Source of the DNA: Seleniivibrio woodruffii
GTDB taxonomy: Bacteria; Chrysiogenota; Deferribacteres; Deferribacterales; Geovibrionaceae
Assembly: GCF_004339245.1 (NCBI RefSeq)
Contig: NZ_SMGG01000003.1
Coordinates: forward strand, 337,106 to 401,105
Direction of reading: 5' to 3'
DNA: 64,000 nt
Under the pieces are notes generated by a model. The model saw nothing but the letters and a program-made list of their open reading frames with translations. It was not told the DNA's origin and searched no databases. A program made the translations under genes and the position numbers. Position 1 is the stretch's first letter, and every line of letters starts with the position of its first letter. Below, piece by piece: positions 15,529 to 18,088 of this stretch.

Positions 15529-17049
15529 TTAGTCCTGTATCAGGCGATATTGAAGAGCTTCCAGAAGATGTCTGGATTCTATGTCGGGTGCGCCTGCCAG
15601 ATCGGCAATTGTGCGTGCGGTCTTCAGAACTTTCGAATAGCTTCTGGCGGAGAGATGGTATTTTTTTGCGGCGGTCTCCAGCAGTTTTTCAGATGCGGTG
15701 TCGAGTTTACAGAATTTTCTGGTCTCCTTTTCACTCATGCGGCTGTTGAACCGGGTGGATGATTTTTTGAACCGTTCAGACTGAATCCTGTGTGCGGCCT
15801 CAACCCTTTTCCTTATCTCCGAAGAGGGCTCTCCCTCGTTCATTGCGGAGAGTTCGGATATGTCTGCGGAGCTGACCTCAACGTGCATGTCTATTCTGTC
15901 CATGAGGGGGCCGGACATTCTGGAGCGGTATTTGTGAATCTGTGTGGGCGTGCAGGTGCATTCCTTCTGTTTATCCCCCATATATCCGCAGGGGCAGGGA
16001 TTGGCCGCCGCCACAAGCATGAAGTTTGCAGGATATACTACAGTTCTGCCGGCTCTGGCCACTGTGACCTCTCTGTCCTCAAGGGGCTGGCGAAGGGTTT
16101 CCAGCACGTTTCGGGGAAACTCCAGAAGTTCATCGAGGAAAAGAACTCCGTTGGATGCCAGACTCACCTGACCGGGGATGGCCTTCGATGTTCCGCCTAT
16201 GAGCGAAACACTGCTGCTTGTGTGGTGGGGACTGCAAAAGGGGCGGTGAACCGCAAGGTCCCTGCCGTTCTTTATCAGTCCTGCGACAGAATATATCTTT
16301 GTGGTTTCAATGGCCTCTGTGATGGTCATATCCGGAAGGATTGTGGGTATCCTGCGGGCTATCATTGTCTTTCCGCTGCCTGGGGATCCTATCATGAAAA
16401 GGTTGTGCATTCCCGCCGCCGCTATCTCGGCACATCTGCGGGCGGAGAACTGCCCCTTAACATCGGAAAAGTCCACTTCGTATTCCTTTACGGATGCGAA
16501 AAGTTTTGTGCGGTTTATGGCGTAGGGAGTTCCGACGCATCCGCCGTTGATGAACTCGACCACGGATGAAAGGTCTTCGAAGGGATATATCTCTATGCCG
16601 TCTATAACAGCGGCCTCGTCTGCGTTGTCTGCTGGCACTACCAGTTTGGTGAAGCCCGCCAGTTTTGCGCCCTCCGCAATGGGCAGTATCCCGCCCACAG
16701 CTCTCAGCCTGCCGTCCAGCGAAAGCTCTCCGGCGAACATGCAGTCCTCAGGAACTGATTTGACCATCCCTGCGGAGCATGTCAGTCCCACAGCCACCGG
16801 AAGGTCGAAGTGGGTTCCCTCTTTTTTTATGTCGGCGGGTGCAAGGTTGATGGTTATAGGATGGGAGAAAACGTTCAGATTCATGTTCTTCATGGCGGAT
16901 TTTACACGGTCACGGCTCTCTTTAACGGCGGTTTCCGCCAGCCCCACCATGTTAAACGTTGGAAGCCCCACGGAGCTTATATCCGTCTCAACTTCCACTA
17001 TCTCCGCCTGAATACCGTTCACCAGCGCACTGAACACTTTTGAAAACAT
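15529..17049 (-). CDS. comM: YifB/ComM family Mg-chelatase-like AAA ATPase
   Basis: This 506-residue protein has an N-terminal Lon-like domain (about 1-170, with LPTFNMVGLAETAVKESRDRV), then an AAA+ module with Walker A GSPGSGKTM, Walker B GVLFLDELLEF and the family Cys cluster NPCPCGYMGDKQKECTC, and a C-terminal helical lid. ComM-type proteins are helicases that promote branch migration during natural transformation. The ATG at 17049 has GGCGG upstream. An in-frame ATG eight codons earlier is less likely, as the family starts MFSKV. A comF-like gene lies at 36 kb. Confidence 0.9.
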   Translation of the reverse strand: MFSKVFSALVNGIQAEIVEVETDISSVGLPTFNMVGLAETAVKESRDRVKSAMKNMNLNVFSHPITINLAPADIKKEGTHFDLPVAVGLTCSAGMVKSVPEDCMFAGELSLDGRLRAVGGILPIAEGAKLAGFTKLVVPADNADEAAVIDGIEIYPFEDLSSVVEFINGGCVGTPYAINRTKLFASVKEYEVDFSDVKGQFSARRCAEIAAAGMHNLFMIGSPGSGKTMIARRIPTILPDMTITEAIETTKIYSVAGLIKNGRDLAVHRPFCSPHHTSSSVSLIGGTSKAIPGQVSLASNGVLFLDELLEFPRNVLETLRQPLEDREVTVARAGRTVVYPANFMLVAAANPCPCGYMGDKQKECTCTPTQIHKYRSRMSGPLMDRIDMHVEVSSADISELSAMNEGEPSSEIRKRVEAAHRIQSERFKKSSTRFNSRMSEKETRKFCKLDTASEKLLETAAKKYHLSARSYSKVLKTARTIADLAGAPDIESRHLLEALQYRLIQD

Positions 17050-17071
17050 TTTCACCGCCTGCAATACGTTC

Positions 17072-17099
17072 ATTATAAATGTTTTGGCGGCATGTGCAA
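17072..17099 (-). promoter_or_regulatory. Promoter for yifB/comM
   Basis: On the minus strand TTGCAC (17099-17094), a 16-bp spacer and a perfect TATAAT (17077-17072) lie 22 bases before the ATG. Confidence 0.6.
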
Positions 17100-17154
17100 A
17101 CTGTTTTGCAATTTCCCCTTGCAGAAATCAAAACGGGATACATATTAAGGGTAT

Positions 17155-17340
17155 AGTTACAGCTTAAGCAGTAACAAATACACTTCCCGAACGAAGAAAA
17201 GGTATCCGAAAGAAGTTAAGGCGGACTGAAGATTTCTGAAGAGAGTTCGGGACAGGAGAAAGTCCAATGGGTTCTGAGGTGACACCACCCAACTCGTAAA
17301 GCCCCGTAAATCGGCAAAGATTACGGGGCTTTATATTTTT
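17155..17340 (+). ncRNA. Unassigned structured small RNA with its own terminator
   Basis: This gene-free stretch shows several helices in order: GTTAC/GTAAC (17156-17175), CCCGAAC/GTTCGGG (17186-17192 with 17245-17251), GGAC/GTCC (17250-17265), TGGGT/ACCCA (17268-17291) and a strong terminator stem. A promoter-like TTGCAG (17119-17124) and TATTAA (17143-17148) precede it. The predicted length is about 185 nt. I could not match it to RNase P RNA, tmRNA, SRP RNA or a riboswitch, and no gene follows on the same strand. The exact 5' end is a guess. Confidence 0.5.
17298..17340 (+). terminator. Rho-independent terminator, also inside the end of the opposing gene
   Basis: There is a perfect 12-bp stem, AAAGCCCCGTAA (17298-17309) and TTACGGGGCTTT (17321-17332), with an 11-nt loop and ATATTTTT after it on the plus strand. 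The right arm also encodes the last codons and stop of the acetolactate decarboxylase gene on the other strand. Confidence 0.8.
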
Positions 17341-18088
17341 CAACCCTGTGAAGCTCGTCGCTTCTGTCTTTTGCCAGATCAAGCTCCTCAAGCCCCTTTT
17401 CGGGCAGAATCATCCTGAATTTGTTCTGTTTATCTATTGAAACCGTGCCGCCGGTCATCTCAAACGCCAGAATGTGGCCTCCGTAGGTCTTTGAACTGTC
17501 TATGAAATGCAGGTGATACCCTGCCACGTTTATACCTTTGACATAAGCCGGAAGGCGGTAGCCTACTATTGTTCCCTCTATGTCCTTATACTCAAAAACA
17601 GGCTGTGTTCTGACAACTTCCGCAAGAGGTCTGTAGGGCTTTGACTGAGCAGGAACCGAACGGACTGTCATAGCCTTGAATTTCCCTTCAGCTTTTACGG
17701 CATAGAAAAGGTTATCGTCTTTTATGAGGCTGTCGGCGAACATCTCAAATGCTTTGAAGTCAACAGGCGAACCGAGCTTCATGGTGATGTCCGGTCTGAA
17801 AAGCGACACCGATGCAAAGGGTGTTGTGCCCTGTCCGACCTTATATATCCTGCCGTCGGCCTTTGCCTGATATACCTGCCCGTCAAGGATTATCATCTCC
17901 CCTTCGAGTCTGTCAAAAGTACCTATGCCGAAATCCCCGTAGGATTTAAGGTTTTTTATCTGTGCAGAACCGTCATAGCCTCCGGCCAAGAGAGCGTCTA
18001 TGGTTGATATCTGGGTTACGGTGTTTTCGTTGTGGGCACAGCCGAAAAGCAGCAGTGCGAACAGAAGAAAAGAGGATGTGCGCATCAT
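17321..18088 (-). CDS. budA: Acetolactate decarboxylase, predicted lipoprotein
   Basis: This 255-residue protein converts 2-acetolactate to acetoin. The family zinc histidines are exact in spacing: His192, His194 and His205 in GYHLHFIDSSKTYGGH, as 194/196/207 in the Brevibacillus enzyme. The N-terminal IDALLAGGYDG and FGIGTFDRLEGEM blocks also match. It starts with a lipoprotein signal ending LLLFGC (Cys17), so the enzyme is probably tethered outside the cytoplasm, which is unusual for a fermentation enzyme though secreted members exist. No acetolactate synthase is nearby. It overlaps the upstream small lipoprotein gene by four bases. Confidence 0.85.
   Translation of the reverse strand: MMRTSSFLLFALLLFGCAHNENTVTQISTIDALLAGGYDGSAQIKNLKSYGDFGIGTFDRLEGEMIILDGQVYQAKADGRIYKVGQGTTPFASVSLFRPDITMKLGSPVDFKAFEMFADSLIKDDNLFYAVKAEGKFKAMTVRSVPAQSKPYRPLAEVVRTQPVFEYKDIEGTIVGYRLPAYVKGINVAGYHLHFIDSSKTYGGHILAFEMTGGTVSIDKQNKFRMILPEKGLEELDLAKDRSDELHRVEKYKAP

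Follow-up and report, generated by a model that had tools for sequence, protein, structure and literature searches.

A probable small RNA gene next to comM, with a conserved start site and mini-ORF, in two genera of Deferribacterota

The locus in Seleniivibrio woodruffii

The window analyzed here, a 64,000-nucleotide stretch of the Seleniivibrio woodruffii genome, includes a short region between two minus-strand genes in which a promoter, several potential helices and an intrinsic terminator can be read on the plus strand. One flank is comM, which encodes an Mg-chelatase-like ATPase, and the other is a gene for an alpha-acetolactate decarboxylase whose N-terminus resembles that of a lipoprotein (MMRTSSFLLFALLLFGCAH). 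The features of the locus, in window positions, are the following.

15529-17073, minus strand: comM
17119-17148, plus strand: promoter, TTGCAG (17119-17124), 18-nt spacer, TATTAA (17143-17148)
17156-17340, plus strand: predicted transcript of about 185 nt with its own promoter and terminator
17156-17175, plus strand: 5' hairpin P0, GTTAC-A-GCT-TA-AGC-A-GTAAC
17185-17192, plus strand: 5' strand of the closing stem P1, TCCCGAAC, pairing with 17245-17252
17193-17244, plus strand: hypervariable loop closed by P1, 52 nt in the window
17245-17252, plus strand: 3' strand of P1, GTTCGGGA, pairing with 17185-17192
17254-17258, plus strand: Shine-Dalgarno sequence AGGAG, invariant in nine copies
17267-17299, plus strand: mini-ORF of 10 codons (MGSEVTPPNS) with the stop codon TAA; its ATGGGT is invariant
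17298-17340, plus strand: intrinsic terminator, stem 17298-17309 with 17321-17332 and a T-rich tail, overlapping the stop codon of the mini-ORF
17321-18088, minus strand: alpha-acetolactate decarboxylase gene

A first-pass annotation of this DNA had proposed a structured RNA in a gene-free stretch between two minus-strand genes. The position between these genes stands, but the stretch is not wholly gene-free: the RNA shares its final 20 nt with the 3' end of the decarboxylase gene, so that the terminator sits partly inside that gene. The match to this gene in three other Seleniivibrio genomes holds one TAG. The CCCGAAC/GTTCGGG stem, the GGAC/GTCC hairpin and the terminator are all present where that annotation had placed them, and the promoter-like sequence that it saw in front of the RNA is conserved across both genera that carry the element (see below). 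A generic promoter and terminator scan of the window listed neither of these plus-strand signals; the support for both comes from their conservation.

The predicted transcript as a whole folds better than dinucleotide shuffles (z = -3.7), whereas the transcript minus the terminator is unremarkable (z = -0.6). Almost all of the apparent stability thus stems from the terminator, and folding energy is no proof of a structured RNA, for which comparison is needed.

No family of Rfam 15 reaches its gathering threshold in the window, and under permissive thresholds the locus and its homologs yield only chance-level matches. The opinion that it matches none of the major housekeeping RNAs is borne out by these searches, as is the specific remark that it is not 6S RNA despite a similar length: the 6S RNA model (RF00013) has no match at the locus and finds the genome's 6S RNA at C3:1140106-1140285 (80 bits), and the tmRNA model (RF00023), likewise without a match at the locus, finds the tmRNA at C3:883952-884300 (196 bits).

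Distribution and conserved architecture

The 60 genomes closest to that of the window were searched for the element. By DNA similarity, it is found in all five Seleniivibrio genomes and in none of the others. When the sequence upstream of comM was read in the remaining family members, the three genomes of a second genus, including that of Denitrovibrio acetiphilus, all proved to have this layout; in the other two genera of the family (three genomes of one and a single genome of the other), no copy was found upstream of comM. Altogether, a pattern search and a covariance model recover nine copies in eight genomes of the two genera, with two copies in tandem in one second-genus genome (G011). 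The covariance model scores the nine copies at 66.9 to 100.7 bits, against 30.8 bits for the next match among the 60 relatives; those of the lower-scoring matches that were inspected are ordinary terminators, and one match (in G050) apparently lies inside a reading frame. Phage and plasmid records showed no DNA similarity to the element, and a scan of viral contigs for the AGGAG/ATGGGT pattern gave two matches, both of which read as ordinary gene starts. Searches of the literature found no small RNA described in these bacteria.

The promoter is conserved as TTGC..TATTAA in the Seleniivibrio copies and takes the forms TTGCAG-18-TATTAG, TTGCGA-18-TACTAA and TTGCAA-18-TATTAA in the second genus, where one of the tandem copies (G011a) has a less exact version of the TTGC-18-TATTAA type. 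The terminator is present in 9/9 copies, its stem being preserved via compensatory changes, and in each of them this stem begins at the stop codon of the mini-ORF. At the loci examined in both genera, the gene 3' of the RNA is convergent and no plus-strand gene comes next. In D. acetiphilus, a dispersed-looking repeat of about 300 nt, in two near-identical copies, lies 3' of the RNA terminator, and the comM match contains one in-frame TAA within the matched stretch, which may be a true stop or an effect of the alignment end (L018).

Comparison separates the helices of the first-pass annotation, which had counted four in addition to the terminator: the closing stem is supported, as is the terminator, and a 5' hairpin joins them, but the GGAC/GTCC stem is weak. 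P1 occupies the same position in all lineages. It reads CCCGAAC/GTTCGGG in the Seleniivibrio copies; the second genus has GCTGCGG/CCGCAGC and, through a compensatory change within that genus, GCTACGG/CCGTAGC in G009. It ends 0-2 nt 5' of AGGAG in every copy except that of one Seleniivibrio genome (G002), in which P1 is interrupted by an internal loop and AGGAG lies further off. When the leaders are shuffled, a stem of the length of P1 arises beside AGGAG in 1-3% of cases for the window, D. acetiphilus and G009, and in 44% for G002. The 5' hairpin P0 is kept in 5/5 Seleniivibrio copies and is absent from the second-genus copies; it has one compensatory pair, which occurs as T-A, C-G or T-G, and G002 has its stem in a rebuilt form. 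The GGAC/GTCC stem, which encloses the Shine-Dalgarno sequence, is reduced to GG/CC in two species. A further possible hairpin, formed by the Seleniivibrio ORF, is partly broken by G-to-T and A-to-G changes in two species. The counts of compensatory changes are small, and a covariation control on four Seleniivibrio sequences, in which 127 of 500 shuffles were equally good, had no power; the structural case accordingly rests on the independent rebuilding of stems.

The loop closed by P1 measures 52-55 nt in Seleniivibrio, whereas the second-genus loops have lengths of 46, 216, 281 and 499 nt. The longest of them, in one of the G011 copies, holds about 11 tandem copies of a 35-nt unit (GAGATTYAGACTCAGATCCRRTTTCAGTTTCCRAA). 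The two G011 copies (L043, C11, 259904 and 259339, reverse strand) differ in their loop repeats, with 35-nt units in one and units of roughly 8 nt in the other, and both have the promoter, closing stem, mini-ORF and terminator. The longer loops are predicted to fold into irregular rods; the possibility that they are selected as unstructured is not supported, since their predicted folding equals or slightly exceeds that of shuffles (z -0.9 to -2.6).

The start site, the mini-ORF and competing explanations

The best-conserved segment of the nine copies is AGGAG-N8/9-ATGGGT, and AGGAG and AATGGGT are the longest blocks that are invariant across the genera. The reading frame that starts here comprises 10 codons in Seleniivibrio and 11 codons in the second genus, with no frame-breaking indel in any of the nine copies. 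Its product is MGSEVTPPNS in the window and MGHEVTPPNS, MGNELTPPNV (two genomes) and MGFEVTPPNV in the other Seleniivibrio genomes, against MGFEEESELFQ in D. acetiphilus and MGSVEDSELLS, MGSVEDLESIF and MGLEEDSELFS in the remaining second-genus copies; beyond MG, the peptide is nearly wholly different between the genera. Despite these differences in length and sequence, the stop codon falls on the terminator in 9/9 copies, an arrangement seen, for any single sequence, in 6-12% of shuffles. The second-genus copies vary at 2, 5 and 7 sites in codon positions 1, 2 and 3, respectively, so that third positions vary most, whereas the small Seleniivibrio sample has no such bias (3, 2 and 2). Given that the copies represent only two lineages, these statistics are thin.

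Taken together, the sequence comparisons indicate that window positions 17156-17340 (plus strand) probably represent a genuine, lineage-specific small RNA gene distinct from both 6S RNA and tmRNA. The first-pass view of an unassigned structured RNA is very probably right in the light of Rfam and of the comparison among relatives, but a purely structural, non-coding character does not fit well with the start site and ORF being the best-conserved parts. What the comparison shows is the layout with its conservation, the stem pairing and the lack of a same-strand gene 3' of the RNA. We somewhat favor the interpretation that the RNA is a mini-mRNA or a dual-function sRNA of which the ribosome-binding site and the 10-11-codon ORF are the working part. 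Under this scenario, in which transcription, translation and any role of the peptide or of loading ribosomes are all inferred, the RNA would run divergently from comM, between a promoter and a terminator of its own, as a molecule of about 185 nt; ribosomes would bind AGGAG just 3' of P1, translate the short ORF and terminate at its stop codon, on the terminator stem. P1 with its expendable, fast-evolving loop, which together make up the 5' domain, would probably serve as a protective or spacing structure beside the start site. As the peptide is less well conserved than the start site, the binding of ribosomes may be as important as what they make. In most copies, the predicted folds engage GGA of the Shine-Dalgarno motif in pairing, so that translation may be inefficient, or the element may instead be a hairpin motif.

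A stricter version of this interpretation, which we consider unlikely, is that the function is ribosome loading as such, on a minimal frame of 10-11 codons whose end lies within the RNA's terminator. The peptide would then be under little constraint, and the attached closed loop could grow from 46 to 499 nt by tandem duplication. To our knowledge, no described bacterial regulatory RNA has this layout.

The strongest competitor, which nonetheless appears rather doubtful to us, is a purely non-coding regulatory RNA, probably Hfq-assisted, that would pair with other mRNAs and contain the short ORF only incidentally. Such an RNA would be expected to look like this one in being a free-standing, terminator-ended transcript of typical size, and the Seleniivibrio loop does contain a conserved stretch, GGTATCYG..AAGAAGTT. 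However, with its length ranging over an order of magnitude, the loop is not conserved between the genera and no shared pairing seed is seen in it, and the segment that the genera do share has the Shine-Dalgarno sense, whereas a seed directed against start sites would be anti-Shine-Dalgarno; this favors ribosome binding over pairing with start sites. Canonical Hfq and a two-domain Hfq protein, which fit this explanation, are encoded in 12/12 genomes of the family. The frame with two Hfq domains in tandem measures about 171-200 aa (G000:C3:268476-268907 and its equivalents in all 12 genomes).

CsrA, too, is encoded in 12/12 family genomes, and the window's GGAC-AGGAGAAA-GTCC can place AGGA in the loop of a small hairpin, as in a CsrA site, which would allow the RNA to titrate CsrA or CsrA to control the RNA. 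This appears improbable to us. RNAs known to titrate CsrA, of the CsrB/RsmZ type, carry many GGA motifs in hairpin loops, whereas here, besides AGGAG, there are 1-2 in the copies with short loops, 5-6 in the two with middle-sized loops and 1 in that with the 499-nt loop, too few for an RNA of this type; moreover, the hairpin is degraded in the two species with GG/CC, and CsrA is equally present in the genera where the RNA was not found. Since Hfq and CsrA are both family-wide, their presence neither supports nor excludes a role for either protein with this RNA.

Finally, it is very improbable that there is no functional RNA at all and that the conservation reflects a divergent comM promoter region together with the terminator of the convergent gene: the window's terminator does run into the 3' end of the decarboxylase gene, but the comM promoter-like site (17072-17100) is separate from the promoter of the RNA, the element is kept with different downstream neighbors in G002 and in the second genus, and neither the compensatory stem changes nor the tandem duplicate would be expected.

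Comparison with known systems

The gene, which seems to be confined to two genera of Deferribacterota, could provide a clean case in which to study how sRNAs are combined with very short reading frames. Its nine natural variants, including two divergent tandem copies in one genome, distinguish the start site, the closing stem and the terminator, which are kept, from the peptide and the loop, which can change. As a small structured RNA with a frame of roughly 10 codons it resembles tmRNA, but it has its own ATG and Shine-Dalgarno sequence and matches no tmRNA model. Leader peptides with attenuators also have a very short ORF directly 5' of a terminator, and here, too, the position of the ribosome could affect the terminator; attenuation is nevertheless rejected, the loci examined having a convergent next gene and no same-strand downstream gene to regulate.

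The closest likeness is to dual-function sRNAs. SgrS/SgrT, RNAIII/delta-haemolysin and Spot 42/SpfP are free-standing, terminator-ended sRNAs in which a short ORF is preceded by a Shine-Dalgarno sequence of its own. RyhB/RyhP is of the same kind (PMC5331693). The RNA described here likewise appears to be free-standing and terminator-ended, with a short ORF and a Shine-Dalgarno sequence. No sequence relationship to these RNAs was found (no Rfam match), and the present RNA differs from them in that its ORF is shorter, at 10-11 codons, runs into the terminator and has the start site as its best-conserved part.
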